From: Xestospongia bergquistia
Taxonomy: Eukaryota; Porifera; Demospongiae; Haplosclerida; Petrosiidae
Length of the DNA: 64,000 nt
Direction: 5' to 3'
Assembly: GCA_963965975.1 (NCBI GenBank)
Contig: OZ014411.1
Span: 5,255,001 to 5,319,000 of the forward strand
Shown here piece by piece: positions 1,528 through 46,973 of this stretch (position 1 is the first letter of the stretch; every line of letters begins with the position of its first letter). Position numbers and translations under genes: made by a program. The notes under the pieces are model-generated. The model did no database searches. It had not been told where the DNA came from and was given only the letters and a program-made list of their open reading frames with translations.

Positions 1528-4500
1528 TTATAACATAGTGTTAACAATGTCAGTTAGTCTCTGATCATTTTGTTTTAACAATACATTACAAATCATAGTT
1601 AAATATTGCTCTGGTTGACTATGTGCTTTTAATTGATTATATAGTTCATGAACTACTTGTCTTGCTTTATGATAATTAGAGACACCATCTATAGTTGTAG
1701 ATTGTAGAACAGCTTCTCCTATAAGTCCATTAGCAAAGAGACTATCAGATATTCGATCAAGATTTGCTGCAAAAGCATCACAAAGATGACTAAGATGAAT
1801 ACGGAATATATCTGCTGGGTTGTGCTCCTCCTCAGATCCTACACAAATAAAAGACATTAATGAGAATTATTAAAGCAATTCCTCATATACAAAATTAGTG
1901 TTGCTATCAATACTAACACAGACCTGATGTTGAATGTGGACCTCTGACTAGATCCTTCTTATTAGTACTGGATGAACCTAAAATGTAAAGCAATATTATG
2001 AAACAACTGTGTCCAGTAAGTCTCTTCATGTAGTTTAAAGATATCAAAATTCACATATTCAATAGAAGTACATAAACACTTACTATGTGTATTATCATGT
2101 ACTAGTGATCTATTGATGAGAATATTAAGTTAACTATTAGTTGATGTTTTATATTCATCATCAGTTACTACAATACACTCAATAGTTAATGGATATTCAA
2201 GAATTAGTAAATTAGAAAATGAAGAGTTTCAAATACTCAATGTAGCTAATTTATTAATATTGTACTATAAAGTGAGTCATACTGCATAAGTGTAATAATT
2301 ATATCTAAAAGACATGATTGCTTATTAAATCTTAGCAACTGTGACATAATATTGATTTGTAAACAATTATAGGTCAAGTGAGTCAATTCTTTAAGCCAAT
2401 TGATTGCTACATTAATAAAACCTTATAATAACTATATGAATAATACTGAATAAACCTACAATACTCACTTTTAGCATTCTCTATTCCACTCACAGAGTGT
2501 TTTGTAACAGCAGCTATATTTATTACAAATTAAGATAATAATAAAATAGATATGTGTATCAGTTATTACCAAGTGATCGTACTATATAAATTTTCTGAGC
2601 GAGATCTTCTTCATTACTGATACCTCTCAAACTAATACCATATTGAAGTACTGGGACTGTCATAGTACTGGGAATAGCAGATACTGTAATCAAACATGAT
2701 GGAAACTGGGGAGGAGAACATGTTCCATAAGTGTCTACAGCTCTTTGATATATCTACAAATGGAGTCATTAGATAATACAAAGGTAATATATTGTCTAGT
2801 ATACCTTAGTAGGATAGGAATGAGGATAGACACTCCATCCTTCACAAGATCGTTCTTGCTCTTCTCCAAACACTAACTCAATATATCCATTTTCCTTTAA
2901 AAATTTGAAGAACACAGTGACATCTTTCTTAGCACTTGGAAGTGAAGTGTCTATGTACTGTAAAAACAATGTCAAGTCAGTCATTTAGTAGTAAGGAGGT
3001 ACCTTTAAAAGAGCATCAAGATGTTGAGATACAAGAAATGTCATTAGCCATTCAGTTTGACATTCTACCTCATACACAACCTGACCTACATATAAATTGA
3101 CTGGAGAATGTCCTAGAGACACATCTACCATAATGTATTAAATAATAATAATGTTGTAATTATGTATACCTTGCTGGGTTTTCAAATCTGTGTGAGCATC
3201 AACATAATTTATATTATCATCATCAGACTGATGTATCTCTATGATATAATAATAAAAGTATAATAAATTAACTCTAGATAGAAGATTGAAGTGAATTTTT
3301 ACCTCCTGAAGTATATGTTGCTAAATTTGTGTGGGTGTCCACAAATTGTGTATCATTATCAGATGATGATGACAATGTTTCTTGTTGTTCAACATCATCA
3401 TACCCGAACAGCCATCTTACTGGTGTCATAAGAGCTTTAATAATTCCTTTGATAGAGAACTTTGTAAGATTAATACTGCCATATTGGTTACCAGGATAGA
3501 ACTGTCCCCCTTCTTCTAATTGCATTTTATAAGGAAGGTCAGGTTGATACAGATCAGCTGTAACAAAACTCAAGTAACCAGTGTGTTCTTGTGTCTCTAT
3601 TGACACACAATGTTGAATAGATAACTGAACTGGTTGAAGGAGTGCTTTGGAAACAGAAATAGCATAAACTGCACTCACTAACATTGTATCAGAGGGACAC
3701 TTAAACTCTCCCCCTACCATTGCTGCAATAGAAACTTCACAAGTTTCTCCAGGAGGTATAGTTCCATGAGATACATTAATTCTTAAACCATATTCCTCCC
3801 AATTTAATAAGCAACTGTGTTCTCCTTGGATTAGGAAAAGTTTCTTACAAGCTATATGAACACCAGTACCATCAAGATACTCCAACTTGTCTAATATAAT
3901 AATATCAATACATGACAATATACTAGTGACATACCAAGAGAAGGGATGAGATAGTTAAACTGACATTCAACATCTTTGGTTATCACTTCATGTTGAACAT
4001 TTGAATCCTCTTCCTGAACTCTTTCCTCTGTTCTGATTAGTTCATGTAATCCTTTATATTTGAAAACAAAATATAATAGCGTACAGTAATATGAACTGTG
4101 GAATATATAGTATTGACCTGATTGTATTACCAATTACACTTGTAAGTGAATACTATTTACCAAATTAAAACTAAAAGTTAACAAAATCCTATAATTTGTT
4201 TTGGAAGATACTGGTTTACAGTAAAACACTGACTGGAGACACAAAGATTATAAAATTAGCAGCAATGTCTATGGAAGACTATAAAATACTAGAATTTTAG
4301 CTTTATAGGCATAGAAAGAAGATGGTAAGAACATTCAAATCACATCCATTGTCATAATACTTGTGGTTGGTATTAATGAATATTGTTAGTTCCTTTATGT
4401 GTTGGCTGTAAAAATTAGTAACTTTAGTATTAATGTTATAAATAAGAGGTCAATATAATTCAATATCTTGTGCTTTAAACATCCAAAAAATGTAATAATT

Positions 4501-7500
4501 TATTTTAAAAAATTTAATGGTGAATTTCAAAATTGATTGTAAAAGAAATAATTAAGTGATCTTATGTACATATCACACCTCACAAAGTCAATACTGTAAT
4601 ATAACATACCAGAAATGGTATCTTTCTTGCCAATATGAAGTAGAACATCTTCAAGATGTCTCAATGTACCTCCTTTTATAGACCATTCTTCTAACAAGCA
4701 TTTCATCTGTTCAGTAGAATCTCTTTTACTTCTGATATCAGTCAGTACAGATTGATCTATATTAAGTTGATGACCTAGTAGTTCCCAATCTTCTTGTACT
4801 GGTTGTAGAACAACTGCCAGTTTAGGAAGATAACTGACAATATCTGTGATATATGATAAATAAAGTAATGAACTGTTATATTACAGTAATAACAAACCTG
4901 TAGTCTTTTGAGGAGTCCTAGGTAATTTCTGTTGTTTGTACTCTTGTAGTTGTGTTTGGAATGTTGTTATGACCTCTTCTTTCTCTTTAGTAACAGTGTG
5001 TAGTTTACGAGTGAGTTGAGCTATGTAGCTGTCTTTCTCATGTATTAAATCAAGATGACTTGTTGTAATAGGAACTATAATATAAAACACAATGGATATA
5101 TCATCATCTGTCACTATTATGTCAAATATATGACTAGACAGAGCAGGTGGCCAAAGGGATTTTTATGCTGACTCATTTTGTCAATTTGTCAATCATGTCC
5201 TAATTGTCTATCTACTTACTTACTTAGTTATCAGTACAACAATGAATGTATTCATTCATTTCTGTCTGTCCATTTATACATCATAAAATTATAACCATCT
5301 TTTATTATAAGTCTAACATACAGAGGATGTATTAACTATCTGTCTATTATTTATATATCTACTTAATAACTACCTACATCAAAATAGTTAGGTTACCTTG
5401 TTGTCTATCTTGTTGAGATTCTAGTTCTAGTAGTCTTTCTTGAAGACTATGAATGTTTTGTTGTGCAACTAAAAGATCATCTCGGTAGTTAGCTTGAAGA
5501 ACTGTCTCCTTAGTTGACAAGTTGTCTTGAGTTGATTTTGTTTGTTGTTCTATCAATTGTCTCCTTACTTCTGTGAGTTGTTTTAATACTCTTTGTTGAT
5601 AGTTATCAGTTGAAGTCAGTTCATTAGAGTCTAGTACAAACCCTACTGACCATTGATCATCATTAAGGACTATATAAGAGAACACAAGAGTACTAATGTC
5701 AGTATATAATGTGGTAGTCTACTACTAGTATAATATGTATGGAAGTAATAAGACTATACTAAGTTGTAGTATATAACAAGGTCAACTGCAACTCAGGTAA
5801 CCCATGTCTTTGGTTAAAATAACCCATTGAAAATTATAGTTAAAGCAACTGTCAAATGTATTGATGATTATAACCCACACCTATAGTTAAAGTAACATCT
5901 GATATAAGTAGTTGAGGTAACAATTGCTGTTACTTTAACTTCATGCACTGTGGTTACTGTAACACTTAGTAGGTTTGATTCTAACATATGTTGCAGTTAT
6001 CATAACTAGCAAAATAGGTTGTTATAACTAATATTGTTAATGTAAATCATTGGTGGTGACATGCTTCTTTTTTTGGTTTCATCATGTACTTTATTTTGAT
6101 AGTCACAAAAAGCATGTTGTCATTTTAACTATAGTTACATCAATATGATGTAAGCCCAATTCAAAGTTGCTACAAGGCCAATACAAGTGTAACTCAATAA
6201 GCATGAAGCGAACTAGTTGCATCTACAACCACATTGCTTTTACACCTACTTTGCTATAGTAGTCGAATCATGGCTTCAATTGAAGCTATAAGTAGATACT
6301 ATTTCAACTTAATTAACCTAATTAGTTAGGTTGAAACAGTATCCATCTCTCCCTTATAATTTCAGTTATTGGATATAAATTACAAAGACTACTTTTGGCT
6401 TCTAGTTGGCTTTTCACATATTAAGTTAGACCAGTTTTTGGCTTTATGGTAACTCAATATTGGGCTTACATCAACTTGATGAGATTCTGATAACGAGGAC
6501 AATTAAGGGTTGAAATGACAAAATTCTATTTTAAGTACATTATTATACCTATGTCATTTCTGTTTCTTCATACCAGTCATTAATGTCTGATTTATTTAAT
6601 TACAATGTTTATCATGGTCATATTTATATAAACTAACAGATGGTTTCACTTATATTTATCTAAAACACTATGTTATGTAAACTAATATTGCTTTTTCTTC
6701 CTTTTACCAATTTGTTTAGTAACTAGATTACATTGTTATTCTGGTGTTAACCTAGTTATAGTAACAGTCAGTCAACATGGTAGCTTCAACCAACTTAGTT
6801 ATATTAACCCATTTTAGTTAAAGTTACCCAGGAGTGTCACTTCAATTACATGTAAGTTAATATAACCAATTTGTATTGTAGTTGATACAACCATTGCAGG
6901 TAGTCTTAACTTTGTGTTTTTGCTGAGTATATTAAATCACATCTACAATGCATATCAAATCATACCTCCTATTATATATAAAGAAATAAACAGATGTACT
7001 ATGACATCAATTATGCATTTCTCATATGAATTTTGTATATGAGATGACTTACTTACCTAGTTCTATTAACATTGTTATATTGATGTCTGTGACATCTGTA
7101 CTATCAACGTTTACTGCACCTCCTACTATAACTAACCACACACAGTGTGATCCCATCATATAGGTTGATAGAGAGTGGGCACATCTCTTAGTCACAGAGT
7201 CAGGTAGATTAATCTGTAGTATATAGAGATATTAATATTACTACATCATTATGTGTTAATATTAAAGACAAGATACACTACAGTATAGTAACTTGAATGT
7301 TATCAAATTATAAATATAATCTTATAATTATAGACATATATACAAATCATCAAAACATTATAATACATCTATCATATTAAAGTAATACAGTGTGTAATTA
7401 TTACTAACTGATATTGTTAAGACAATATATGAGATATGTCATTTATAATTAACAATTCTACTTAACAGATACATACTATCATAGAACTGATTAGAGTAAC

Positions 7501-8841
7501 ACATTATGATATACCTTTGTCCATGACTTCTTATTAATATCCAGTATCCAGCAGTCTTTTATTAACTCTTCATAATTATCTAGTCCACCTAACACCACTA
7601 GTATAGGTGATATTGATCCAGTGATAATACTAGCAGCATGAAAGTCCCTTTCCTCTGGCCATTGTACTACTGGATCAGGTTTAGTAATAGTCTGCCAGTG
7701 CTAGATATAGACAAATGAACTCAACTAACACTCATTATAACATGCTATTAGTTAGTGTATAAATGATAATATAACATACCAATGTATTATTGATGATGTC
7801 CACTATATATATGGTATTACTTGTTGTGCCATTTTCAATAATACCACCAAAGATGACTGCTCTGGTATTATGTATCATTTCCATAACAAAGTTATTATTA
7901 GGTGGCATACACTGTCCACTGATATCAGGTATTGTCCATTCATCTAAAAGTAGAACAAACAGAACACTCATCATCATACTTGTATCATAGTAGTAATTTG
8001 GTTATGATATAATAATCAATAAAATGACAGTTTATTAGTACAATTATAATATTAATATTAACATTATCTGATCATTAAAGTATTATTGTAAATACTCCAC
8101 TAAAATTATTTCATAAGTGATGTAGGCTCAAACACAATAGCAGTACTCTATGATAGTGATATGATGTCTAATACTATAATATGATATATTAATGTACTTA
8201 CTAGTGGATATGTTATATAGGTTCTGTTCATTAGTACGTATTCTACCACTGGGTAACTGAATATATTGAGCTTGTGATAGTTTTGTAGAAGGTGGGGATC
8301 CAAGACCTCCTATAACTATAAGACAATGTACTCCTCCATACTCAGTCAACATTATACCACCAGCACCTCTCTTCATCACTGGTCTCCTATCATCTGTTGG
8401 TGATACCTGTGTCCAGGTTAGAGTGGAAGTATCTAGTTCATTTAGACTGTTATGGTAGCAAATGTCATGACCACAGTATCCTCCAAAATAATAGATCTTG
8501 TTGTTAAATGTAGTACAGGAATAGTTGATCACTCCTAGAGGTGGATTACCTCTGGTGGGTTTAGTGTCCCATTTACCACAGGTAATATTGAAGATTTGTA
8601 CTTGAGATGTGAGTCTTTTTTTCTCATCATTGTTGTGTACTTTGGGTAAGTTTGGTTGATCCCCACCCCACAAATATAGACTGTCACCAATCACTTGAGT
8701 GTTATGACCAGCTCTTCCTTCAAGTTTGTATTGTCCTGTAGAGAATGATATGTACCATATCTTGAGATCAGATGGTAATATACGACTACATAACAAGTGT
8801 AGATATTGTATGATATTACCTGAAGATACGTCAGTGGCCAT
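1528..8841 (-). CDS. Unit A: kelch–coiled coil–Death–ZU5–UPA-like–CARD protein (1114 aa)
   Basis: Sixteen exons: 8820–8841, 8202–8735, 7780–7943, 7515–7700, 7057–7213, 5397–5669, 4898–5074, 4610–4843, 3935–4051, 3303–3890, 3170–3238, 3003–3124, 2805–2957, 2570–2753, 1924–1977, 1528–1838. They sum to 3345 nt, in phase, with no internal stop seen. Residues 1–354 hold six Gly-Gly kelch motifs (YLWGGDQ, YYFGGYC, IVIGGLG, VIFGGII, VVLGGLD, VIVGGAV), so a six-bladed propeller. Residues 355–504 are coiled coil, 505–582 a Death domain (WELLGHQL, LLEEWSIKGGTL, HIGKKD), 583–621 an acidic linker, about 623–775 ZU5 (MLVSAVYAISV, QPVQLSIQHC), about 840–993 a UPA-like region, and 1012–1114 a CARD-like death fold. 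A cytosolic immune or cell-death sensor is inferred. The domain order is not one I know. It is the only FIIND-type unit here with a fully open frame. Confidence 0.82.
2078..2330 (-). pseudogene. Decayed extra UPA-like exon inside the last introns of unit A
   Basis: This stretch matches the UPA-like exon of unit D (30588–30804) over VVTDDE and NILINRS, but codon TAA (complement of 2130–2132) interrupts it and the upstream half is eroded. Unit A already has its own functional counterpart (2570–2753), so this is a leftover second copy. Joining exon 2570–2753 directly to 1924–1977 keeps the frame. The same lesion occurs in unit E at 41014–41016. Confidence 0.6.
5782..6930. repeat. Intronic insertion with repeated GTTA/TAAC motifs (unit A)
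   Basis: The corresponding intron of units C, D and E lacks this ~1.1-kb block: they run directly from 'ataacaaggtc' to the 'acctcctactatatat' region. The insert is full of short degenerate repeats such as 'tagttaaagtaac', 'ggttaaaataaccca' and 'gttactgtaac'. They read in one sense near the left end and mixed or opposite sense near the right end (6745–6910). No transposase or other coding sequence is visible. It is probably a non-autonomous mobile element or satellite-like insertion. Confidence 0.5.
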
Positions 8842-13041: not shown

Positions 13042-16000
13042 TCATAACAATACTTTTATACTATTAGCAATGTCCTTTAGTTTCTGGTCATTTTCTTTCA
13101 ATAAGACATCACAAATCTTAGTTAGCAATTGAACTGGATGTCTATGAGCTTGTAACTGATTATATAGTTCGTGGACTAGTTTGCTAGCTTTACGATAATT
13201 AGAAACACCTTCTGCTGTTGTGAACTGTTGTACAGCTTGTCCTATCAACTTTTCAGCAAATAGTTTATCAGCAACTTCATCAAGACATGAAGCAATAGCT
13301 TTACTAATATCTGGAATATAAGTACGAAATGTCTCTGATGGATTTGGCTTCTCCTCTGGCACTATAAAATTGAAAGGCAGAGGCAGAGTAAATTATTTTA
13401 AAATTGTTCTAATTTAGTGCTTGTCTTCATTAACAAATTAATAATTACTATAATTCAACAGAGTAATTTAGAATATTTGTTTATAAGTCATATTATGTAG
13501 TCACCAATAGCCATTTTTCATTATTATTATATAATATCATAAATATATAAACATACTTCTAATATCTGATGTAGTAACAACTTCATCAGTTGATAATGAT
13601 TGTCTTGATACTCCTACTTAATGAAATAAATATATCTAGTAATCATTCAGTTTCACCATTTATTTATTCATCAATATTAATATTTAAAGTACCTTTACTT
13701 AGAGAATGAGGCTCTTTTAACTCTAATGGCTGTTGTCTATATTCCTGTATCTGTTGCTGTTGTTGTTGTTCAATATCATGTATTTGTTGCTGATGTCGTT
13801 GTTCAATATCATGTATTTGTTGTTGATGTCGTTGTTCAATATCATGTATTTCCTGTATCTGTTGCTGATGTTGTTGTTCAATATCATGTATTTGTTGCTG
13901 ATGTTGTTGTTCAATATCATGTATTTCCTGTATCTGTTGCTGATGTTGTTGTTCAATATCATGTATTTGTTGCTGATGTTGTTGTTCAATATCATGTATT
14001 TCCTGTATCTGTTGCTGATGTTGTTGTTCAATATCATGTATTTGTTGCTGATGTTGTTGTTCAATATCATGTATTTCCTGTATCTGTTGCTGATGTTGTT
14101 GTTCAATATCATGTATTTGTTGCTGATGTTGTTGTTCAGTTTCTTGTCTAGCTTGTTCTAGTTGTTGTAGTAGGTGGAGATTACTTTGTTGATATTGATT
14201 TCTCTCAGACTTTATCTTTTGTAGTTCATCTAAAACAAATCAGAGATATATACAGTTAATATGATATAGTTAATATACTGTTTATAGTCAATAGTAGATT
14301 AACACATTGTAATTTGACTTCTATCTATTATCTTTATATCTATCAATCTATCAACATATCTGTCAATTTATCATTTTCTAATTCTCTGTCATTTACTTAT
14401 CCATCAAACCATTAATGTCTCTATGAATAGGAGTCTATAAAAGATATTTATATGAATTTATCAACATATCAATCTACATAGATGGATAATAGAAGGAGTG
14501 ATGAACTGATGAAGAGATAGATAGACAAAGGAAAGGACAATGTATATCCATTAATTTGTCTGTCTCTCATTCACTTCATCCATTTAACTCTATAATGGAT
14601 AAATAGACAGATAGACTAATTAATGGACACTGGATTGATGGTACAATGGACAATTAACAAATAAATAGACAGATGAATGAAAGGACACATGAATGGACTG
14701 TCATAAAAGCAAAGTCTGACTTACAAGAGAATATTTATGGACTATCTGTCTATTATCCATACATCTATTTAACTATATAACTACCTACATCAAAATAGTT
14801 AGGTTACCTTGTTGAGATTTTAGTTTTTGCTGTTGTTCTAGCCATTCTCTCCTTACTTCTCTGAGTTGTTTTAATACTCTTTGTTGATAGTTATCAGTTG
14901 AGGTCAGTTCATTAGAGTCTAGTACAAACCCTACTGACCATTGATCATCATTGAGGACTATATGAGAGAACACAAGAGTACTAATGTCAGTATATAATGT
15001 GGTAGTCTACTACTAGTATAACATGTATGGAAGTAATAAGACTATACTAAGTTATAGTACATAACAAGGTCACCTATATAACAGTACATGTACTAAATGA
15101 ACATTAATAAGAGTTATAGTACTGATAATACATACAGTATTATCTCTTATGATAAATATGTGGGTATCAGTAGTACATAAAACAGTTTACTCATATACCT
15201 AATTATATCTTTTACTATGTACATCAAACTACACCTCCTACTATATATAAAGTAATACACAGAAGTACTGACATCAATTGTGTATTTCTCTTACAGTGGC
15301 TTAGACACCATAAAAAATTTGGGAGGGCTCAAATGTAACCTGATATTTTTTACTGTCATGCCAAAAATATTACAATAAATTAAGTACGAATAACTTGAAT
15401 CAATAACAGTATAACAATCAGTAAACAGTTTTAAAATTGTCCAAAATGCTTCATCCTTTCATCATTTCTCTTTACAAACTCCTTGGCTATTGAAAGTAAA
15501 TTGAGATTATTGGTGTAGTTGTTGTGTATATGCAAAAGTAAATAATTGTTTAAGTGGCTTTGAGTCACTGTTAAGAACAAACAATTGAAGTTGTGTATAG
15601 CTGGTATTAATTATTCAATATTATGCATATGTGACCTGATTTGCAAAAAGGGACCACTTCTGTCAAAACATTTGTGACCTGACTTTTGAACAAACTACTG
15701 TTAAAACATCTCAAACATCTCAGTTTTGTATACATACAGTTGATACATATGCATAACTATTCTACATGCATGCAAAACTGTTTATTGTTATGTTTTAATT
15801 AACAGTGTTTTTTTCACAAATCAGGTCACAAATGTTGTGACAGAAGTGGTCCCTTTTTACAAATCAGGTCACATATACATGATCAATCACCTACAAATAC
15901 ATGTACATCATTTACACTGTCAGGTGATAAATTTTTTGACACTATTCTGTTTTTGATAATGGTTTTTTGAAATTGCTGAATCGTTCAAATTAAGGGGGCT

Positions 16001-17950
16001 GTGCCCCCCAGTCTTAAATTAGGGGGGGCTCAAGCCCCCCTGCCCCCCCTATGTCTAAGCCAGTGTCTTATGAACTTAATGTGGTTTGTGTTTGTGTAAT
16101 GACTTACTTACCTAGTTCTATTAGCATTGTTAGATTGGGGTCTATGACATATATACCATCATAATTTAGTGCACCTCCTACTATAACTAACCACACACAG
16201 TGTGGTCCCATCATATAGGTTGATAGAGAGTGACCATATCTCTCAGTCACAGAGTCAGGTAGATTAATCTGTAGTATGTAGAGATATGAATATTATTACA
16301 TCATTATGTGTTAATATTAAACACAAGATACACTACAGTATAGTAACTTGAATGTTATCAAATTATAAATATAATCTTATAATTATAGACATATATACAA
16401 TCATCAAAACATAATACATCTATCATATTAAAGTAATACAGTGTGTAATTATTACTAATTGATATTGTTAAGACAATGTATGAGATATGTCATTTATAAT
16501 TAACACTTCTACTTAACAGATACATACTATCATAGAACTGATTAGAGTGACACATCATGATATACCTTTGTCCATGACTTCTTATTAATATCCAGTATCC
16601 AGCAGTTTTTTAGTATTTTTCCATAATTATCCAGTCCACCTATCACCACTAGTACAGGTGATATTGATCCAGTGATAATACTAGCAGCATGATTGTCCCT
16701 TCCCTCTGGCCATTGGACTACTGGGTCAGGTTTAGTGATACTCTGCCAGTGCTAGATATAGACAAATGAACTCAAATAACACTCATTATAACATGTTATT
16801 AGTCAGTGTATAAATGATAATATAACATACCAATGTATTCTTGATAATGTCCACTATATATATAATATTACTTGATATGCCACCTTCAATAATACCACCA
16901 AAGATGATTGCTCTGGTATTATGTATCATTTCCATAACAAAGCTATCATTTGGTGGCATACATTGTCCACTAATATCAGGTATTGTCCATTTATCTAAAA
17001 GTAGAACAAACAGAACACTCATCATCATACTTGTATCATAGTAGTAATTTGGTTAAGATATAATAATCAATAAAATGACAGTTTATTAGTACAACTATAA
17101 TATAATATTAACATTAACTGATTATTGAAGTATTATTATTATAAAGTACTGCTGTAGTGTTCGTCTACTTTTAGTAAGTTAGAAAACAATAAAATAGTTA
17201 TCAGGTGAAATAGTGAGTAGTAATATTTACAGATATTAAAATACAGGTGGTGGTATATTTAGATGACACAACACAATAGCAGTACTCTATTATAGTGATA
17301 TGATATCTAATAATATAATATGATATATTAATGTACTTACTAGTGGATATGTTATATAGGTTCTGTTCATTAGTAAGTACTCTACCACTGGGTAACTTAA
17401 TATACTGAGCTTGTGATAGTTTTGTAGAAGGTGGAGATCCAATACCTCCTATAACTAGAAGACAATGTACTCCACCATACTCAGTCAACATCATACCACC
17501 ATAGCCTCTCTTCATCACTGGTCTAATATCATCTGTTGGTGATATCTGTGTCCAGGTTAGAGTGGAAGTATCTAGTTCATTCAGACTATTATGGTAGCAA
17601 ATGTCATGACCACAGTATCCTCCAAAATAATAGATCTTGTTATTAAATGTAGTGCAAGAATATCTGATCACTCCTAGAGGTGGATTACCTCTGGTGGGTT
17701 TAGTGTCCCATTTACCAGAGGTAATATTGAAGATTTGTATTTGAGATGTGAGTCTCCTTTTCTCATCATTGTTGTGTACTTTAGGTAAGTTTGGTTGATC
17801 CCCACCCCATAAATATAGACTGTCACCAATCACTTGAGTGTGATGAAAAGCTCTTCCTTCAAGTCCTGTAGAGAATGATATGTACCATATCTTGAGATCA
17901 GATGGTAATATACGACTAAATAACAAACCTGAAGATACGTCAGTGGCCAT
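13042..17950 (-). CDS. Unit B: kelch–coiled coil–Gln-rich coiled coil–CARD protein (705 aa)
   Basis: Nine exons: 17929–17950, 17341–17865, 16831–16994, 16566–16751, 16112–16268, 14808–14957, 13693–14229, 13557–13613, 13042–13361. They total 2118 nt, in phase. Residues 1–351 form the six-bladed kelch propeller; exon 2 lacks three codons after MATDVSSG relative to unit A. Residues 352–401 are a short coiled coil. Exon 7 begins [19 protein letters not shown], close to the first part of unit C's kinase exon, then runs into a QIHDIEQQHQQ repeat. A 19-residue linker leads to the terminal CARD-like domain (MPEEKPNP..., LFAEKLIGQAVQQ, KICDVLLKEND). It lacks Death, ZU5 and UPA, so it may act as an adaptor or competitor of unit A. 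A partner role is inference. Confidence 0.8.
13745..14140 (-). repeat. 75-bp coding minisatellite in unit B
   Basis: Inside exon 7 of unit B an 11-residue module QIHDIEQQHQQ alternates with a 14-residue module QIQEIHDIEQQHQQ, giving a 25-residue (75-bp) period over about five cycles. The nucleotide copies are almost identical, so the array was recently expanded or homogenised. Every module length is a multiple of three, so copy-number change keeps the reading frame and only lengthens the predicted coiled coil. Confidence 0.85.
15295..16068. mobile_element. MITE-like element with CA(G/C)TGGCTTAGACA ends
   Basis: It sits in the unit B intron between exons 5 and 6. The left end CAGTGGCTTAGACA and right end TGTCTAAGCCAGTG are inverted repeats, and TCTTA flanks both sides as a likely target duplication. 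The matching introns of units C, D and E run through 'gtgtatttctcacatgaacttaatgtgg' without an insert. Inside are two oppositely oriented stretches containing 'ggtcacaaatg' and 'gtgacctgatttg' plus G/C runs near the right end. No ORF is present. A solo end of the same family lies at 52828–52850. Confidence 0.65.
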
Positions 17951-23422: not shown

Positions 23423-26400
23423 TCACACTTTTAATTGTTTGAGTTGGTCTAAAATTTGGGTCATATTTGGACGATGTTGACAATCTTGGTTAAGACACCT
23501 TCTTATTAGAGAGGACATAGGAGACCATGACACTCTACTAGCTTGTTGTTCTCTTTCTATAACTGTCATAGCAGGTGGACAATGTAAGATCATCTCCATT
23601 AGGAGAACAGAGTAACTGTATACATCCATTGCTGGTGTATGATCATCTGGATAACGTGACTCTGGAGCAGCATAGGCTGGATTTCCTGGCATGTCTGTCT
23701 TTGCTTGTTGTTGGAGATTAGCTGCTCCATAATCAGCTACTTTAGCTTTGAAACTATCACCTACTGATGGTTCTAACAGGACATTAGGACTACTAATATC
23801 TCTATGTATAATAGGGTTGGGCTTCCATAGATGGAGGTAGTTCAGAGCTAAAGCAACATCTTGACTGATACCAAGTATTTGAGGTTGTGTCAATGCATTC
23901 TTTTGGAGCTCTTCATACAGACTAGTGGTCATGATCTCTGTAAGGATAATGGGTGTGCCCACTCTAGTAGCTCCAATAAATTGGACAAGATTAGGATGAC
24001 ATACTCTAGAAGCAATGTCCATTTCTCTGGAGAAAAGATCTCGTGTATAGTCTGAGATGATGATACCATGAAGAGACTTAGCAGCTACTCTTAGACCTCG
24101 GAACATAGCCACTTTAACTTTACCATATGACCCATCACCTAAGACCTCCTGTGTCATAGTCACTTCCTCTCTATCAACGACCCAATGAGGTTGTCTTTGT
24201 TGAGAACAAAACTGTTCTAATTGTTGACATAGAGTACAAACTGTTTCTTCAGACTCCTGCATTTGTTGTTGATACTGTTGTAACTGTTGTCTATACTCAA
24301 GTGACTGTTGTATAATATTTTGTCTATCTTGTTCTGTTTGTTGTAGTTGTTGTAGTAAGTGGAGATTACTTTGTTGATATTGATCTCTAGTAGATTTTGT
24401 CTCTTCTAGTTCATCTAAACAGATTACAGACAAATACACTTAATACAATTAATGAATATATGTATAAAACACCTCATTAATCAGACTACTTGCCGTTCAT
24501 CTATCCATCCACATAACTATCCATCCATTATTATTATTATTAATCTTTCTTCCCATCCACCTATCTAGCATTATTCTGTTCTCAGAATAATGCATCACCA
24601 CTAACACACTTAAAATTAAATTATAAATACATTAACACGATTTAAAATTATATATCTATATATAATATATAGTTAGGTTACCTCGTTGTCTATCTTGTCG
24701 AGATTCTAGTTCTAGTAGTCTTTCTTGAAGACTTTGTATGTTTTGTTGAGCAACTAAAAGATCATCTTGATAGTTAGCTTGAAGAACTGTCTCCTTAGTT
24801 GTCAAGTTGTATTGAGTTGATTTTGTTTGTTGTTGTTCTATCCATTGTCTCCTTACTTCTGTGAGTTGTTTTAATACTCTTTGTTGATAATTATCAGTTG
24901 AGGTCAGTTCATTAGAGTCTAGTACAAACCCTACTGACCATTGATCATCATTGAGGACTATATGAGAGAACACAAGAGTACTAATGTCAGTATATAATGT
25001 GGTAGTCTACTACTAGTATAACATGTATGGAAGTAATAAGACTATACTAAGTTATAGTACATAACAAGGTCACCTATATAACAGTACATGTACTAAATGA
25101 ACACTAAGAAGAGTTATAGTACTGATAATACATACAGTATTATCTCTTATGATGAATATGTGGATATCAGTAGTACATTAAAACAGTTTACTAGTAAATC
25201 TAATTACGTTTCTTACTATGTACATCAAACCACACCTCCTACTATATATAAAGAAAGTACTATAAATAAGAAATAAACATTGTGTACTTTTCATAAGAAC
25301 TTAATGTGGTTTGTGTATGTAATGACTTACTTACCTAGTTCTATTAACATTGTTAGATTAGAATCTGTGACATATTGACCACCATAGCTTACTGCACCTC
25401 CTACTATTACTAACCACACACAGTATGGTCCCATCATGTAGGTTGATAGAGAGTGGGCACATCTCTTAGTGACAGAGTCAGGTAGATTAATCTGTAGTAT
25501 GTAGAGATATTAATATTATTACATCATTATGAGTTAATATTAAAGACAAGATACACTACAGTATAGTAACTTGAATGATATCAAATTATAAATATAATCT
25601 TATAATTATAGACATATATACAAATCATCAAAACATTATAATACATTTATCATATTAAAGTAATACAGTGTGTAATTATTACTAATTGATATTGTTAAGA
25701 CAATATATGAGATATGTCATTTACAATTAACACTTCTACTTAACAGATACATACTATCATAGAACTGGTTAGAGTGACACATCATGATATACCTTTGTCC
25801 ATGACTTCTTACTAATATCCAGTATCCAACTGTCTTTTAGTGTTTCGTCATTATTATCCAGTCCACCTATCACCACTAGTATAGGTGATATTGATCCAGT
25901 GATAATACTGGTAGCATGAAGATACCTTTTCATTGGCCACTGACCTACAGGGTCAGGTTTAGTAATAGTCTGCCAGTGCTAGATATAGACAAATGAACTC
26001 AAATAACACTCATTATAACATGTTATTAGTCAGTGTATAAATGATAATATAACATACCAATGTATTGTTAATGATGTCCACTATATATATAGTACTACTT
26101 GATGTGCCATCTTTAACTCTACCACTAAAGATGATTGCTCTGGTATTATGTATCATTTCCATAACAAAGCTATTATTAGGTGGCATACATTGTCCACTGA
26201 TATCAGGTATTGTCCATTCATCTAAAAGTAGAACAAACAGAACACTCATCATCATACTTGTATCATAGTAGTAATTTGGTTATGATATAATAATTAATAA
26301 AATGACAGTTTATTAGTACAACTATAATATTAATATTAACATTAACTGATCATTAAAGTATTATTGTAAAGTTATTACAGTGCTCTATGATAGTGATATG

Positions 26401-27088
26401 ATGTCTAATAATATAATATGATATATTAATGTACTTACTAGCGGATATGTTATATGAGTTCTGTTCATTAGTACATACTCTACCACTGGGTAGCTGAATA
26501 TACTGAGCTTGTGGTAGTTTTGTAGAGGGTGGGGATCCAAGACCTCCTATAACTATAAGACAATGTACTCCTCCATACTCAGTCAACATTATACCACCAG
26601 TACCTCTCTTCATCACTGGTCTCCTATCATCTGTTGATGATATCTGTGTCCAGGTTAGAGTGGAAGTATCTAGTTCATTCAGACTATTATGGTAGCAGAA
26701 GTCATGACCACACGATCCTCCAAAATAATAGATCTTGTTGTTAAATGTAGTACAAGAGTAGCTGATCACTCCTAGAGGTGGATTACCTCTGGTGGGTTTA
26801 GTGTCCCATTTACCAGAGGTAATATTGAAGATTTGTACTTGAGATGTGAGTCTCTTTTTCTCATTATTGTTGTGTATATAAGGTAAGTTTGGTTGATCCC
26901 CACCCCACAAATATAGACTGTCACCAATCACTTGAGTCTGATGACCAGCTCTTCCATTAAGTTTGTATTGTCCTGTAGAGAATGATATGTACCATATCTT
27001 GAGATCAGATATAATTATATGATAATATACAACTACATAACAAGTGTAGATATTACATGATATTACCTGAAGATACGTCAGTGGCCAT
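23423..27088 (-). CDS. Unit C: kelch–coiled coil–TKL-like protein kinase (776 aa)
   Basis: Seven exons: 27067–27088, 26439–26972, 26058–26221, 25793–25978, 25335–25491, 24682–24957, 23423–24414. They sum to 2331 nt, in phase. Residues 1–354 form the six-bladed kelch propeller and 355–530 a glutamine-rich coiled coil. The kinase (about 530–776) has a glycine loop GDGSYGKV (539–546), an AAK lysine (559), HRDISSPN (650–657), DYG in place of DFG (674–676), and APE (696–698). It ends at the domain border (HRPNMTQIL). All catalytic residues are present, so it should be active. The HRD..SPN form fits the tyrosine-kinase-like group, but substrate class cannot be set from sequence. It shares the sensor module with units A, B, D and E, so a role as signalling kinase of the same pathway is inferred. 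Confidence 0.88.
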
Positions 27089-30013: not shown

Positions 30014-33000
30014 TTATAACTTAGCTTTAATATTATTAACAATATCAGTTAGTCTTTGATCATGTTGTTTTAATAGTACATCACATATCTTAGTTAGATA
30101 CTGCTTGGGATCATTATGAGTTTGTAACTGCTTATATAGTTCATAGATTAGTTTGCTAGCTTTACGATAATCAGATATAGCTTCTATAGTTGTAGACTGT
30201 TGTATAGCTTGTCCGATTAGTTTCTCAGCAAACAATCTATCAGTTACTCTATAAAGATCTGAGGTAATAGCATCACTAAGATCAACAATGTGAGGACGAA
30301 ATATTTCTGATGTGTTGGGTTCCTCTTCAGATCCTATAGAAATAAAGGATATTATTACAAGCTATTAAAACAGCTCATTGTAAATACAATTAGTGGTGTC
30401 ATCAATATTGACACAGACCTGATGTTGAATGTGGATATCTAACAAGATCCTCTTCATAAACACTAGATAAACCTGAAATACAAAGAAATAACAACATAAA
30501 AATTATGCTCAGGAAGTCTCTTCATGTAGTTTGAAGATATCAACAATGAAAAATTCACATATTCAATAGAAATACATAAACACTTACTATGTGTATTATC
30601 ATATACTAGTGATCTATTGATGAGAATATTAGGTTGAATATTAGCTGATGTTTTACATTCATCATCAGTTACTACAATACCCTCAATAGTTATTGGATAT
30701 TCAAGACTTTGTTTAGAATCTGAATCAGCACGTATTAACACAGGAATATATGGAGGATTGGCACTCTTTGATTCCATAAAGTCATCAACATGTCTCCTGT
30801 TAATCTATTTGTTAAAGTGATGTTCAATACAATTATATATAAATGCTCCTTATATTGAGCAAATATTTAATAACACTTACTACAGGTGGATTATGAATAG
30901 GTTTAACTATCCATCCTTGAACTGTATCATTAGGAAATCCTGATAACTTCAATGTCTCAGAGATAAAACAAAATCTAAGGCTAGAATGTTTTTCTCCAAG
31001 TTCATTAGTAGATATCAGTTCTTGAACACACTATAAACAAAATAATGTAGTTAATACACTTATATAGACCTATTACCTCAGAGTACTTAGTATCTTGAAT
31101 TACAACAAAATTTAAATTCCATTTATTGGTATCCATACTTTTATAAAAAACACAAGCTTGATAGTAACAGGAAGGCTTGTTTCCTGGATATATGTCAATG
31201 TTTAAATGAATACAATCATTTGTCACTTACCTGCTGTAAGATGGCGTCTTGCTACTGCTCCTAAGGCAAGTGCTGCAACACCACCAATAACTAGTACTAC
31301 AGCTAGTAATGAAAACTTCTTTAAAGATATAGTACCATATTGAGACTCAGTAGAAAATGATCCACCTGGTAAGTATTCAAATTTGAAGGGTGGGTCTGAT
31401 TTAGCAGCCACAAAACTCAGGTATTGTGTCTGTCTTTCATCAAGTATTTGAGCACAATGCATTAGCTCAACTGTAACTGGTTTGTTGAGCTCAAAGGAAC
31501 TAGACACTGATATATAACAAACACCACTGATAAGTATACTACCTTCAGGGAACACAAACGTGCCACCCCACAAACCTTGAGCAGCTACCTCATATACAGA
31601 CTCAATGGGTGTGATGACCTCTGCTGGAATGACTAGTCTTAATCCACATTGTTCCACTAGTAACTCATGATTAGTATGAGCATTATAGAGACATAGCTTC
31701 TTGCCAACTGTAACTATTCCTTCAAATGAGTCTACATTACAAATAGTATTTAAAAAAGTATAAAATTTGCTTAATACTTTGTACCTGATATATTGGTATA
31801 ATTCCAGTAATCACACTGGATACATTTATCAGTAGAGACCTCTATACTCATATCAGCATGTGTTCTCTCCTTATCTTGTAGAGCAAGTAAGCCTGACAAT
31901 AAGATCACAATATTAATAATGTTACATTTAACACATTGACAGATCAAAAAGTTAACACTGTAACAAAACATACCAGAAATGATATCTTTCTTGCCAATAT
32001 GAAGTAGAGCATCTTCAAGTTGTGTCAATGTACCTCCATTTATAGACCATTCCTCTAACAAGTACTTCATCTGTTCAGTAGAATCTCCTTTACTTCTGAT
32101 ATCAGTTAGTACAGACTGATCTATATTAAGTTGATGACCCAGTAGTTCCCAATCTTCTTCTACTGGTTGTAGAACAACTGCAAGTTTAGGAAGATAACTG
32201 ACAATATCTGTGATATATGATAAATAAAGTAATGAACTGTTATATTTATAATAATAACAAACCTGTAGTCTTTTGAGTATATATGTAAAATTTAATTTAA
32301 TCAATGATAATTAAACAAAATACAAAGTACAATATACCAAAGTTGAATGGATAAATGGATGGAAAACAAATGAACAGATTTTAATGAAGAGACACATAAT
32401 GGATTATCATAAAACAAAGTCTAAGACAAAAGCAGGAGAAACAAATTGAAAAACTGATAATAGGGAAAAATATAGATGGACATATAGATAAACAAAGATA
32501 AATAGACAGACTGATATGAATATATGAATATAATTTATTTAAAAGATGAAATAATCAAAAGACAAACAAACAGACATAGCAATAATGGATGAATAGAGGG
32601 ATAGATAGACAAACAAATGGATGGACACATGAATGGATTGTCATAAAAACAAAGTCTAACATACAGTATATATATGGACTATCTTTCTATTAACAATTCA
32701 TCTACTAACTATATAACTACCTACATCAAAATAGTTAAGTTACCTTGTTGTCTATCTTGTTGAGATTCTAGTTGTTCTATCCATTGTCTCCTTACTTCTG
32801 TAAGTTGTTTTAATACTCTTTGTTGATAGTTATCAGTTGAAGTCAGTTCATTAGAGTCTAGTACAAACCCTACTGACCATTGATCATCATTGATGACTAT
32901 ATGAGAGAACACAAGAGTACTAATGTCAGTATATAATGTGGTAGTCTACTACTAGTATAACATGTATGGAAGTAATAAGACTATACTAAGTTATAGTACA

Positions 33001-35306
33001 TAACAAGGTCCCCTATATAACAGTACATGTACTAAATGAACACTAAGGAGAGTTATAGTACTGATAATACATACAGTAATATCTCTTATGATGAATATGT
33101 GGATATAAGTAGTACATCAAAACAGTTTACTAGTAAATCTAATTACATCTACTACTAAGTACATCAAACATCACTTCCTACTATGTAAAAAAAAACACAG
33201 ATGTACTATGACATCAATTGTGTATTTCTCACATGAACTTAATGTGGTTTGTGTATGTAATGACTTACTTACCTAGTTCTATTAACATTGTTATATTGGG
33301 GTCTTTGACATATGTGTCATCATCAAAACCTCCTACTATTACTAACCACACACAGTATGGTCCCATCATGTAGGTTGATAGAGAGTGGGCACATCTCTCA
33401 GTGACAGAGTCAGGTAGATTAATCTGTAGTATGTAGAGATATGAATATTATTACATCATTATGTGTTAATATTAAAGACAAGATACACTACAGTATAGTA
33501 ACTTGAATGTTATCAAATTATAAATATAATCTTATAATTATAGACATATATACAAATCATCAAAACATTATAATACATCTATCATATTAAAGTAATACAG
33601 TGTGTAATTATTACTAACTGATATTGTTAAGACAATGTGAGATATGTCATTTACAATTAACACTTCTACTTAACAGATATATACTATCATAGAACTGATT
33701 AGAGTGACACATCATGATATACCTTTGTCCATGACTTCTTACTAATATCCAGTATCCAGCAGTCTTTTATTGTTTTTTCATCATTATCCTCTCCACCTAT
33801 CACCACTAGTATAGGTGATATACATCCAGTGATTATACTGGCAGCATGATTGTCCCTTCCCTCTGGGCACTGTACTAATGGGTGAGGTTTAGTGATAGCC
33901 TGCCAGTGCTAGATATAGACAAATGAACGCAACTAACACTCATTATAACATGTTATTAGTCAGTGTATAAATGATAATATAACATACCAATGTATTGTTG
34001 ATGATGTTCACTATATATATAGTATTACTTGATATGTCACCTTCAATAATACCACCAAAAATGATTACTCTGGTATTATGTATCATTTCCATAACAAAAT
34101 TATTATTAGGTGGCATACATTGTCCACTGATATCAGGTATTGTCCATTCATCTAAAAGTAGAACAAACAGAACACTCATCATCATACTTGTATCATAGTA
34201 GTAATTTGGTTATGATATAATAATCAATAAAATGACATATTAGTACAACTATAATATTAATATTAACATTAACTGATCATTAAAGTATTATTGTAAATAC
34301 TTTACTAAAATTATATCATAAGTGATGTAGGTAACAGGTATATACAATATAAGTTGTTATATAGTGAACAATTGATTAGTTTCACAATAAACAAAGGTCA
34401 CATGACTACTGGTAATCAATTACTTTCATACATCCATTCATTATATAATAATTACATATACTATAAAGTACTGCTGTAGTGTTCATCTACTTTTAGTAAG
34501 TTAGAAAACAATAAAATAGTTATCAGGTGGAATAGTGAGTAGTAATATTTACAGATATCAAAACAACAGGTGGTAGAATATTTAGATAACACAACACAAT
34601 AGCAGTATTCTATGATAGTGATATGATGTCTAATAATATAATATGATATATTAATGTACTTACTAGTTGATATGTTATATAGGTTCTGTTCATTAGTACA
34701 CACTGCACCACTGGGTAACTGAATATACTGAGCTTGTGGTAGTTTTATAGAGGGTGGGGATCCAATACCTCCTATAACTAGAAGACGATGTACTCCTCCA
34801 TATTTAGTCAACACCATACCACCATAGCCTCTCTTCATCACTGGTCTCCTATCATTTGTTGGTGATATCTGTGTCCAGGTTAGAGTGGAAGTATCTAGTA
34901 CATTTAGACTGTTATGGTAGCAGATGTCATGATAACAATCTCCTCCAAAGTAATAGATCTTGTTGTTAAATGTAGTACAAGAATAGTTACCCACTCATAG
35001 AGGTGGATTACCTCTGGTGGGTTTAGTGTCCCATTTACCAGAGGTAATATTGAAGATTTGTACTTGAGATGTGAGTCTCCTTTTCTCATCATTGTTGTGT
35101 ACTTCAGGTAAGTTTGGTTGATCCCCACCCCACAAATATAGACTGTCACCAATCACTTGAGTGTGATGACCAACTCTTCCTTCAAGTTTGTATTGTCCTG
35201 TAGAGAATGATATGTACCATATTTGAGATCAGATATAACTATGGTAATATACGACTACATAACAAGTGTAGATATTGTACTAACCTGACAATACATCAGT
35301 GGCCAT
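30014..35306 (-). pseudogene. Unit D: kelch–coiled coil–Death–ZU5–UPA-like–CARD gene with TGA at codon 75
   Basis: Fourteen exons: 35285–35306, 34664–35197, 33988–34151, 33723–33908, 33273–33423, 32744–32896, 31974–32207, 31785–31892, 31231–31731, 31077–31183, 30881–31030, 30588–30804, 30419–30472, 30014–30333. They total 2901 nt (967 codons) in phase. The one lesion seen is TGA at 34995–34997, where the other units have GGA (glycine of the PPLGV strand). The coiled coil is shortened and the second coiled-coil exon is lost. The Death domain (WELLGHQL, LLEEWSINGGTL), ZU5 (GLRLVIP, SILISGVCYISVS), UPA-like region (VQGWIVKPIHNPP) and CARD (LFAEKLIGQAIQQ) stay open, as if selection lasted until recently. 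Unlike A, the ZU5 exon ends in a hydrophobic stretch (31250–31309) like a membrane helix. The stop could be a recent inactivation, an allele or a sequencing error. Confidence 0.75.
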
Positions 35307-40459: not shown

Positions 40460-43400
40460 TTATAACATAGTGTTAACAATGTCAGTTAGTCTCTGATCAT
40501 TTTGTTTTAACAATACATTACAAATCATAGTTAAATATTGCTCTGGTTGATTATATGTTTTTAACTGATTATATAGTTCATGAACTACTTGTCTTGCTTT
40601 ATGATAATTAGAGACACCATTTATAGTTGTAGATTGTAGAACAGCTTCTCCTATAAGTCCATTAGCAAAGAGACTATCAGATATTTGATCAAGATTTGCT
40701 GCAAAAGCATCACAAAGATGACTAAGATGAATGCGGAATATATCTGCTGGGTTGTGCTCCTCCTCAGATCCTACACAAATAAAAGACATCAATAAGAATT
40801 ATTAAAGCAATTCCTAATATACAAAATTACTGTTGCTATCCTTTTTATTAGTACTAGATGAACCTAAAATGCAAAATAATATTATGAAACTACTGTGTCC
40901 AGTAAGTCTCTTCATGTAGTTTAATAAAGATATCAAAATTCACATATTCAATAGAAGTACATAAACAACTGTGTATTATCATATACTAGTGATCTATTAA
41001 TGAGAATATTAAGTTAACTATTAGTTGATGTTTTATATTCATCATCAGTTACTTACAATACCCTCAATAGTTAATGGGATATTCAACAATTAATAAATTA
41101 GAAAATGAAGGGTCTCAAATACTCAATATAGCTAATTTATTAATATTGTACTATAAAGTGAGTCATATTGTCATAAGTGTAATAATTATATCTAAAAGAC
41201 ATGATTGCTTATTAAATCTTAGCAACTGTGACATAATATTGACTTGTAAACAATTATAGGTTAAGTGAGTCAATTCTTTAAGCCAATTGATTGCTACTTT
41301 AATAAAACCTTATAATAATCCTACAATACTCACTTTTAGCATTCTCTATTCCACTCACAGAGTGTTTTGTAACAACAGCTACATTTATTACAAATTAAGA
41401 TAATAATAAAATAGTTATATGTGTATCAGTTATTACCAAGTGATCGTACTATATAAATTTTCTGAGTGAGATCTTCTTCATTACTGATACCTCTCAAACT
41501 AATACCATATTGAAGTACTGGGACTGTCATAGTACTGGGAATAGCAGATACTGTAATCAAACATGATGGAAACTGGGGAGGAGAACATGTTCCATAAGTG
41601 TCTACAGCTCTTTGATATATCTACAAATGGAGTTATTAGATAATACAAAGGTAATATATTGTCTAGAATACCTTAGTAGGATAGGAATGAGGATAGACAC
41701 TCCATCCTTCACAAGATCGTTCTTGCTCTTCTCCAAAAACTAACTCAATATATCCATTTTCCTTTAAAAATTTGAAGAACACAGTGACATCTTTCTTAGC
41801 ATTTGGAAGTGAAGTGTCTATGTACTATAAAAACAATGTCAAGTCAGTCATTTAGTAGTAAGGAGGTACCTTTAAAAGAGCATCAAGATGTTGAGATACA
41901 AGAAATGTCATTAGCCATTCAGTTTGAAATTTTACCTCATACACAACCTGACCTACATATAAGTTGACTGGAGAATGTCCTAGAGACACATCTACCATAA
42001 TGTATTAAATAATAATAATGTTGTAATTATGTATACCTTGTTGGGCTTTCAAATCTGTGTGAGCATCAACATAATTTATATTATCATCATCAGACTGATG
42101 TATCTCTATAATATTATAATAAAAGTATAATACATTAACTTTAGATAGAAGAGTGAAATGAATTTTTACCTCCTGAAGTATATGTTGCTAAATTTGTGTG
42201 GGTGTCCACAAATTGTGCATCATTATCAGATAATGATGACAATGTTTCTTGTTGTTCAATATCATCATACCCGAACAGCCATCTTATTGGTGTCATAAGA
42301 GCTTTAATAATTCCCTTTATAGAGAACTTTGTAAGATTAATACTGCCATATTGGTTACAAGTATAGAACTGTCCCCCTTCTTCTAATTGCATTTTATAAG
42401 GAAGGTCAGGTTGATACAGATCAGCTGTAACAAAACTCAAGTAACCAGTGTGTTCTTGTGTCTCTATCGACACACAATGTTGAATAGATAACTGAACTGG
42501 TTGAAGGAGTGCCTTGGAAACAGAAACAGCATAAACTGCACTCACTAACATTGTATCAGAGGGACACTTAAACTCTCCCCCTACAATTGCTGCAATAGAA
42601 ACTTCACAAGTTTCTCCAGGAGGTATAGTTCCATGAGATACATTAATTCTTAGACCATATTCCTCCCAATTTAATAAGCAACTGTGTTCTCATTGGATTA
42701 GGAAAAGTTTCCTACAAGCTATATGAACACCAGTACCATCAAGATACTCCAACTTGTCTAATATAATAATATCAATACATGACAATATACTAGTGACATA
42801 CCAAGAGAAGGGATGAGATAGTTAAACTGACATTCAACATCTTTGGTTATCACTTTATGTTGAACATTTGAATCTTCTTCCTGAACTCTTTTCTCTGTTC
42901 TCATTAGTTCATGTAATCCTTTATATTTGAAAACAAAATATAATAACATACAGTAATATGAACTGTGGAATATATAGTATTGACCTGATTGTATTACCAA
43001 TTAGACTTGTAAGTGAATACTATTTACCAAATTGAAACTAAAAGTTAACAAAATCCTATAATTTGTTTTGGAAGATACTGGTTTACAGTAAAACACTGAC
43101 TGGAGACACAAAGATTATAAAATTAACAGCAATGTCTATGGAAGACTATAAAATACTAGAATTATAGCTTTATAGGCATAGAAAGAAGCTAGTAAGAACA
43201 TTCAAATCACATCCATTGTCATAATACTCGTGGTTGGTATTAATGAATATTGTTAGTTCTTTTATGTGTTGGCTGTAAAAATTAGTAACTTTAGTATTAA
43301 TGTTATAAATAAGAGGTCAATATAATTTAATATCTTGTGCTTTAAACATCCAAAAAATGTAATAATTTATTTTTAAAAATTTAATGGTGAATTTCAAAAT

Positions 43401-46400: not shown

Positions 46401-46973
46401 CTGAATATACTGAGCTTGTGGTAGTTTTGTAGAGGGTGGGGATCCAACACCTCCAATAACTAGAAGACAATGTACTCCTCCATACTCAGTCAACATCAAA
46501 CCACTATAGCCTCTCTTCATCACTGGTCTCCTATCATCTGTTGGTGATATCTGTGTCCAGGTTAGAGTGGAAATATCTAGTTCATTAAGACTGTTATGGA
46601 AGCAAATGTCGTGATAACAATCTCCTCCAAAATAATAGATCTTGTTATTCAATGTAGTACAGGAATAGTTGGCCACTCCTAGAGGTGGATTACCTCTGGT
46701 ATGTTTAGTATCCCATTTACCAGAGGTAATATTGAAGATTTGTATTTGAGATGTGAGTCTCCTTTTCTCATCACTGTTGTGTACTTCAGGTAAGTTTGGT
46801 TGATACCCACCCCACAAATATAGACTGTCACCAATCACTTGAGTTTGATGACCAGCACTTCCATCAAGGTTGAATTGTCCTATAGAGAATGTTATGTATC
46901 ATATCTTGAGATCAGATATGACTACATAACAAGTGTAGATATTGTACTAACCTAATGATACGTCAGTGGCCAT
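40460..46973 (-). CDS. Unit E: kelch–coiled coil–Death protein; FIIND–CARD part cut off by TGA at codon 645
   Basis: Exons: 46952–46973, 46346–46879, 45663–45826, 45398–45583, 44940–45096, 44270–44545, 43762–43938, 43473–43706, 42802–42918, 42170–42757, 42037–42105, 41870–41991, 41672–41824, 41437–41620, a shortened exon ending at 40867, and 40460–40770. The order matches unit A and most exon lengths are identical. TGA at 42690–42692 replaces the GGA glycine near the start of ZU5 (IQGEHSC in unit A), so translation yields 644 residues: kelch, two coiled-coil exons, Death domain and acidic linker. The downstream exons are otherwise open. The 54-nt linker exon has lost its original donor by a deletion near 40838; a donor at AACAGTAATT would give a 33-nt in-frame exon. 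Whether this is a pseudogene or a truncated Death-domain protein cannot be told from sequence. Confidence 0.7.
40975..41180 (-). pseudogene. Decayed extra UPA-like exon in unit E
   Basis: Same position and same TAA (complement of 41014–41016) as the relic in unit A at 2130–2132. The lesion therefore predates the split of A and E. Confidence 0.55.

Follow-up and report, generated by a model that had tools for sequence, protein, structure and literature searches.

In NLRP1 and CARD8 the front end of the protein acts as the bait, and the tail, a ZU5 domain followed by a further module and a CARD, acts as the alarm. A phenylalanine-serine pair (F-S) at the end of ZU5 is the self-cleavage site of NLRP1, CARD8 and PIDD. 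Self-cleavage of CARD8 requires F296, S297, His-252 and His-270, and the residue before F matters little (D'Osualdo et al., PMC3210808). The catalytic histidine sits 27 residues before the serine in human NLRP1 (H1186) and CARD8 (H270) (PMC8081665, PMC3210808) and in rat NLRP1 (H942; NLRP1-DPP9 paper, PMC8081665), and the UPA domain allows the CARD filaments of NLRP1 and CARD8 to form at a lower threshold (PMC7794386). Here we describe unit A, a gene model from the sponge Xestospongia bergquistia (assembly GCA_963965975.1, contig OZ014411.1, positions 5,255,001 to 5,319,000; this whole stretch of 64,000 nucleotides is the window), whose predicted protein places a tail of the NLRP1/CARD8 order behind a kelch propeller.

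Like NLRP1 and CARD8, unit A has ZU5, then a module, a linker and a terminal CARD-like domain, with F-S at the end of ZU5. Unlike them, it carries kelch, a coiled coil and a Death domain in front, it is without the catalytic histidine, its UPA is not proven, and F-S is separated from the exon that opens the module (exon 11) by about 75 residues (about 10 at another locus, L050). PIDD1, UNC5 and ankyrins also have ZU5 and a UPA-like module before a death-fold domain, whereas in unit A the C-terminal domain is of CARD type and Death lies in front of ZU5; the match of the last exon is to CARD rather than Death, so unit A does not share their C-terminal Death domain. The Death-like/TRADD-N expansions of the sponge Amphimedon are likewise lineage-specific and combine death-fold domains with many partners, but their Death-like and TRADD-N units stand at the N-terminus and kelch is unmentioned in the accessible text (Kaur et al. 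2021, PMC8195603). That paper mentions fusions of TRADD-N to FIIND and to UPA-Zu5; NACHT-Zu5 is mentioned elsewhere (PMC12909245), ZU5 is among the domains that accompany NACHT in cnidarians (PMC8260672), and kelch-, Death- and CARD-containing genes are among those altered by microbial cues in the transcriptomes of two sponges (PMC6208332). A literature search whose scope left subscription papers mostly outside returned no description of ZU5, CARD and kelch together, with or without sponge, in agreement with the first-pass annotation of this DNA, which knew of no described protein of this order.

Unit A lies on the minus strand as an open spliced frame from an ATG at 8841 to a stop at 1528, with 16 exons, 15 introns that are all GT-AG (15/15) and consistent phases throughout. 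The start, stop, order of parts and phase-consistent exons of the first-pass annotation agree with this splice model (8841-1528), and its single open frame stands as well; its length of 1114 codons does not, the frame having 1157 codons plus stop, 43 more. The domain order is kelch, coiled coil, Death, ZU5, a three-exon module (exons 11-13) and a CARD-like end. Related units, B to E, lie elsewhere in the window and are listed further below. The features of unit A are as follows.

7057..8841, minus strand: exons 1-4 (8841-8202, 7943-7780, 7700-7515, 7213-7057), six-bladed kelch propeller, residues 1-383 (Pfam and GG motifs)
4898..5669, minus strand: exons 5-6 (5669-5397, 5074-4898), coiled-coil region, residues 383-533 (read by eye)
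4610..4843, minus strand: exon 7, Death domain, residues 533-611 (Pfam PF00531, 8.6e-8, residues 540-610)
3935..4051, minus strand: exon 8, linker between Death and ZU5, residues 611-650 (splice model; present in unit E too)
3303..3890, minus strand: exon 9, ZU5 and an acidic linker, residues 650-846 (Pfam PF00791)
3454..3459, minus strand: F794-S795 (K-F-S) at the end of ZU5 (alignment; residue numbers counted by hand)
3170..3238, minus strand: exon 10, linker, residues 846-869 (splice model; present in unit E too)
2570..3124, minus strand: exons 11-13 (3124-3003, 2957-2805, 2753-2570), UPA-like module, residues 869-1022 (order at other loci)
1924..2513, minus strand: exons 14-15 (2513-2469, 1977-1924), linker, residues 1022-1055 (splice model; exon 14 matched in unit E, exon 15 in unit D)
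1528..1838, minus strand: exon 16, CARD-family domain and stop, residues 1055-1157 (hhalign)

The best overall explanation of these features, which we favor with modest confidence, is that a kelch input domain is joined through a coiled coil and Death to a signalling tail of ZU5, a UPA-like module and CARD. At E-values up to 1, Pfam matched kelch, Death and, barely above threshold, ZU5 on unit A; neither UPA nor CARD was matched, and NACHT was absent among the 12 families listed. The coding sequence appears constrained. We calculated the ratio of nonsynonymous to synonymous substitution rates (dN/dS) for ten exons (exons 6, 8, 10, 11, 14 and 15 were outside the test) against paralogues within the window and at six other loci, taking only matches that span at least 70% of the exon. 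Pooled dN/dS was below 1 for all ten (0.32–0.65; single pairs up to 2.25), with values of 0.32 for both ZU5 and exon 12, 0.36 for CARD, 0.42 for Death, 0.45, 0.45, 0.55 and 0.65 for the kelch exons, 0.47 for exon 13 and 0.53 for exon 5. Unit A is apparently an intact, open gene, and it probably encodes an intracellular sensor.

Two findings go beyond the first-pass annotation: similar tails are spread across the genome behind other N-termini, and some caspase hits have related CARDs upstream of them. To quantify the recurrence of the tail, we read 20 other loci of the same 146-Mb genome, hand-picked and not random, from the hit lists for ZU5, the module and CARD (L053 and L054 from the CARD list only). 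In 13 of the 20, ZU5, exons 11, 12 and 13 and a CARD follow in order on one strand, the last domain being a second CARD type at two of these (L036, L044). The remaining seven depart from the full order in different ways: exon 12 is missing at L035, CARD is not in range at L037, CARD lies upstream at L043, ZU5 is missing at L049, L052 ends after exon 13, and L053 and L054 have CARD without the module. Wherever the module occurs it follows ZU5, with one exception (17/18 loci). Only 0–27 bases separate ZU5 from exon 11 at L036, L050 and L051, where the two lie in a single open frame and so form one exon and belong to one protein. At L039, exons 11 and 12 were also considered as a single exon; this was ruled out, as the 54 intervening bases fit a small read-through intron.

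What stands in front of the tail varies. Kelch exons lie upstream within the fetched stretch at five of the 20 loci, a lower bound because the stretches are at most 9.5 kb long; the one fetched at L037 stops 3.9 kb short of a kelch exon. Of the 20, 12 have a Death domain of the exon-7 type ahead of ZU5 on the same strand, seven of them without kelch in the fetched stretch. At L050 the ZU5-module-CARD tail follows ankyrin repeats; at L051 it comes after COR, accompanied by a Roc match below the threshold, and Death; at L049, exons 11-13 and CARD follow a kinase, and no ZU5 was found. Order and strand suggest that the frames at these three loci form single genes. Within the window, conversely, the same kelch and coiled coil are joined to several different ends. 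Similar tails behind other front ends suggest a mix-and-match cell-death alarm system.

The ZU5 named by the first-pass annotation is recovered (PF00791, residues 672-752) at 22.0 bits against a Pfam cut-off of 21, and at 26.7 bits in a six-frame search of the genome, which provides the ZU5 subdomain of a FIIND. The F-S motif of a FIIND is present too, as K-F-S. Across the ZU5 copies of the genome (31 distinct copies aligned, 30 with residues at the site and one gapped), F is found in 28 of 30 and S or C in all 30. The HC histidine inside ZU5 is kept in 31/31 copies; we take it to be the equivalent of His-252 of CARD8. Weighing against a FIIND-type mechanism, the position of the NLRP1/CARD8 catalytic histidine, -27, is Leu in unit A and His in only one of the 31 copies. 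The residue directly before F in unit A is Lys, not His. We therefore did not file unit A as a FIIND, since F-S is kept but the known catalytic histidine is absent; of the FIIND-like end proposed in the first-pass annotation, the order and the F-S motif stand and the histidine does not. Self-cleavage of unit A at F794-S795 is possible, and we do not predict it with confidence. Histidine does occur just before the F position in four ZU5 copies, three with H-F-C and one with H-S-C. The H-F-C copies are those of L039, L040 and L043, with His as in the H-F-S of PIDD and Nup98, and their Cys is a possible candidate nucleophile.

The module in exons 11-13 is probably UPA, a reading that its position and pattern support. 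Its family has at least 182 exon-level matches in the genome at E-values up to 1 (150 scored of 249 candidates), and 20 columns are invariant across 12 copies. By eye, the module consists of a strand, one helix and then further strands, an order similar to that of UNC5B. A weak relative at L042 scores 12.2 bits (best of 1000 shuffles, 9.4), but only 3.8% by hhalign, and it lies between ZU5 and a Death domain below the Pfam cut-off (18.2 versus 22.6 bits). Between ZU5 and Death is the classical place of UPA. The L042 relative is part of one apparent gene (L042:2575-4620) with ankyrin-like repeats (by eye), ZU5, the module relative and a weak Death domain, which adjoins a ZU5-module-CARD gene.

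A less likely alternative that still carries weight is that exons 11-13 are a separate lineage domain and not UPA, so that the tail is ZU5-X-CARD and resembles NLRP1 in order alone. Several results point that way and weigh against a UPA assignment: the module profile reached a best E-value of 1.1 against the PDB, which is chance level; hhalign of the module against the UPA domains of ankyrin and UNC5B gave 0.1–0.2%; and Pfam UPA gave no candidates on unit A or genome-wide (0 candidates, but no control rang in the genome search either). The hhalign comparison has little power, because the same test also misses ankyrin against UNC5B (2.0%), and both the placement of the L042 relative and the strand-helix-strands order speak for UPA. 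The TRADD-N fusions to FIIND and UPA-Zu5 (PMC8195603) raised TRADD-N as a candidate for the module; it appeared in none of the Pfam listings examined, and no search was aimed at TRADD-N in the module.

The terminal domain can be read as a diverged member of the CARD family. The exon 16 family has at least 150 matches in the genome at E-values up to 0.01 (150 scored of 233 candidates). We compared its profile by hhalign with eight Pfam CARDs of the same genome, excluding the compared CARDs from the profile. With 15 rows that share at least 30% identity with unit A, the match was 78.0% with a score of 29.9 (100 column shuffles, at most 16.0). With 24 rows, including other CARD types, it was 95.4% with a score of 43.0 (100 shuffles, at most 14.7). 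Because five rows of other CARD types had been drawn into the 24-row set by iteration, a 19-row test without the second CARD type was made, and it gave 92.5% with a score of 37.0 (100 shuffles, at most 16.4; Death 1.1%). Across row sets the Death profile reached 1.1–1.9%, so the exon 16 family resembles CARD above chance and above Death. An initial comparison (98.9%) was circular, with 7 of 44 rows from six of the eight compared CARD loci, and was discarded.

Several points count against the CARD reading. The match in the two stricter row sets spans 41 columns, less than the whole domain. Pfam CARD matches one of 16 family members (E = 0.042), and five unrelated Pfam families give lower E-values than CARD on single members. 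The death-fold control was Death; DED and pyrin controls were not included. Against the PDB, the best hit was a cytochrome oxidase subunit (E = 0.13), too weak to use. The second PDB hit (E = 0.14) was an MBP fusion of a guanylate-binding-like protein, the matched stretch of which is presumably a zebrafish CARD; it is equally too weak to use. The terminal CARD of the first-pass annotation is supported by the family comparison (78–92%) and not by Pfam on unit A.

The genome has 99 caspase-domain matches. On contig C11, seven CARDs of the unit A family (30–34% identical) lie upstream of seven of 14 clustered caspase hits on the same strand, at 2.2–5.0 kb from start to start. Five of these seven distances fall at 2–3 kb, a range picked after seeing the data; random placement within the cluster equalled this in 19 of 20000 trials. 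The one C11 CARD that was read, L063, scores 90.6 bits with the profile of the unit A CARD family. L053 has a frame for a CARD of this family with a NACHT frame (Pfam, 3.3e-21) immediately downstream. Weighing against the favored explanation, the C11 link is a distance between hits that were not read as one gene, L063 alone reaches only 5.7% against the Pfam CARD profile, and a gasdermin search of the genome found none, although the same search also gave no hit in any control genome. The second CARD type, represented by L064, scores 22.0 bits, under the Pfam CARD cut-off of 23.9, and on C11 a caspase hit lies 2.2 kb downstream of the start of L064; the 42.1 bits that L064 reaches with the family profile are not independent, because the profile already held rows of its type. 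A CARD of this second type also lies at 11702-12034 of the window, with pieces of exons 12 and 13 alongside at 12400-12683.

The front end is the proposed input domain. The six-bladed kelch and the Death domain of the first-pass annotation are both confirmed: Pfam recognizes kelch in unit A (PF24681, 2.6e-38), its six GG blade motifs correspond to six blades, and Death is recognized with the E-value listed above. The coiled coil, judged by eye, is a Gln/Glu-rich heptad-like sequence in exons 5-6; exon 5 is also present in units B, C, D and E, and exon 6 in unit E. We examined kelch variation across the five window units with all four kelch exons (the kelch fragment at 21222 was left out, the first 30 alignment columns were excluded, and in-frame stops interrupt units D and E). 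Variable sites make up 35 of the 60 positions within ten residues after GG versus 73 of 293 elsewhere, a clustering that none of 352 circular shifts reached. Variation at the same place in every blade is the pattern expected of a binding face. The dN/dS is 1.10 at post-GG sites (bootstrap interval 0.65–2.21) and 0.51 in the remainder; this interval counts against the favored explanation, and positive selection at these sites is not proven. Diversifying selection on the whole kelch was ruled out by the pooled values (0.45–0.65), only the post-GG sites reaching 1.10. A large tandem array of kelch exons, 41–48% identical to exon 1 of unit A, lies on contig C11 (C11:0.07-2.3 Mb).

Ligand binding, autoinhibition, release, caspase recruitment and an immune role are what we infer for unit A from these parts. 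In the proposed mechanism, the propeller would bind a ligand, either foreign or altered self, by the variable segments that follow its GG motifs, and the coiled coil would form oligomers. The ZU5 would pack on the UPA-like module and keep the CARD held off until ligand or damage releases the tail. The clustered CARDs could then recruit caspases that bear CARDs of the same family, and by analogy with NLRP1 and CARD8 the module may promote CARD filaments. Judged as a whole, the first-pass observation is largely real and partly confirmed, and its interpretation as an NLR-independent innate sensor with an NLRP1/CARD8-like end is partly supported.

Other functions would be compatible with some of the same features. 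The family could serve self/non-self recognition between individuals and not pathogen sensing, as its large tandem families, variable propeller sites and near-identical segmental copies might suggest; family CARDs beside caspase and NACHT frames fit a cell-autonomous alarm as well, and we consider this role unlikely. ZU5-UPA also works outside immunity, in the adhesion or axon-guidance roles of ankyrins and UNC5 receptors, and unit A might similarly be a non-immune scaffold. The nearest PDB entries to its ZU5 profile are indeed both ZO-1 (E = 0.026 and 0.053), followed by unrelated chains, but a CARD-like end, an upstream Death domain, caspase neighbours and an expansion that would be typical of death signalling make a scaffold quite improbable. 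Least probable of all is that two adjoining genes, kelch-coil-Death and ZU5-module-CARD, were merged by a model built from sequence alone, whose two longest introns lie at 7056-5670 and 4609-4052, given that phases fit throughout and that Death precedes ZU5 at the 12 loci noted above, seven of them without kelch.

The remaining units of the window show how the kelch and coiled coil are combined with other ends.

13042..17950, minus strand: unit B, with kelch, coil, a repeat-rich coil and a CARD tail; neither the Death exon nor the ZU5 exon is matched
23423..27088, minus strand: unit C, with the same kelch and coiled coil and a protein kinase tail (Pkinase, 1.4e-32) instead of ZU5-CARD
30014..35306, minus strand: unit D, with kelch, coil, Death, a diverged ZU5, an exon-13-like piece and CARD
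40460..46973, minus strand: unit E, a near-copy of unit A with the Death-ZU5-module-CARD end

The repeat-rich coil of unit B contains a Q/H-rich coiled-coil unit repeated in tandem and in frame (13664-14239), a stretch that is open in several frames on both strands. In unit D, the ZU5 scores 18.9 bits, below the cut-off, exon 1 has in-frame stops, and exons 11-12 were not found. Unit E is 94.6% identical to unit A over 4.4 kb, introns included; its exons 1 and 9 are interrupted by in-frame stops and it looks broken. The border of its exon 15 was not found. Downstream of the unit A stop, a fragment at 448-708 repeats exon 14, the last part of exon 13 and flanking sequence; it is what remains of a further tandem copy. 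A ZU5 piece and exon-11 pieces lie at 28427-29038, between units C and D. The plus-strand frames at 59928-60623 resemble what we take to be a membrane acetyltransferase of the HGSNAT type.

A broader reading, which we offer tentatively, is that this sponge has an NLR-independent alarm of the inflammasome type, in which one exchangeable ZU5-UPA-CARD cassette would serve behind kelch, ankyrin and Roc-COR GTPase front ends together with caspases that carry CARDs of the same family, and in which F-S and H-F-C cleavage chemistry may have arisen or been rearranged independently of the histidine-dependent FIIND of vertebrates. If an early-branching animal uses this tail as a cassette throughout its genome, then the principle of any bait joined to one releasable CARD tail would predate NLRs and extend beyond them. 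How FIIND-type cleavage arose would then be testable by comparing K-F-S, D-F-S and H-F-C copies within a single genome.

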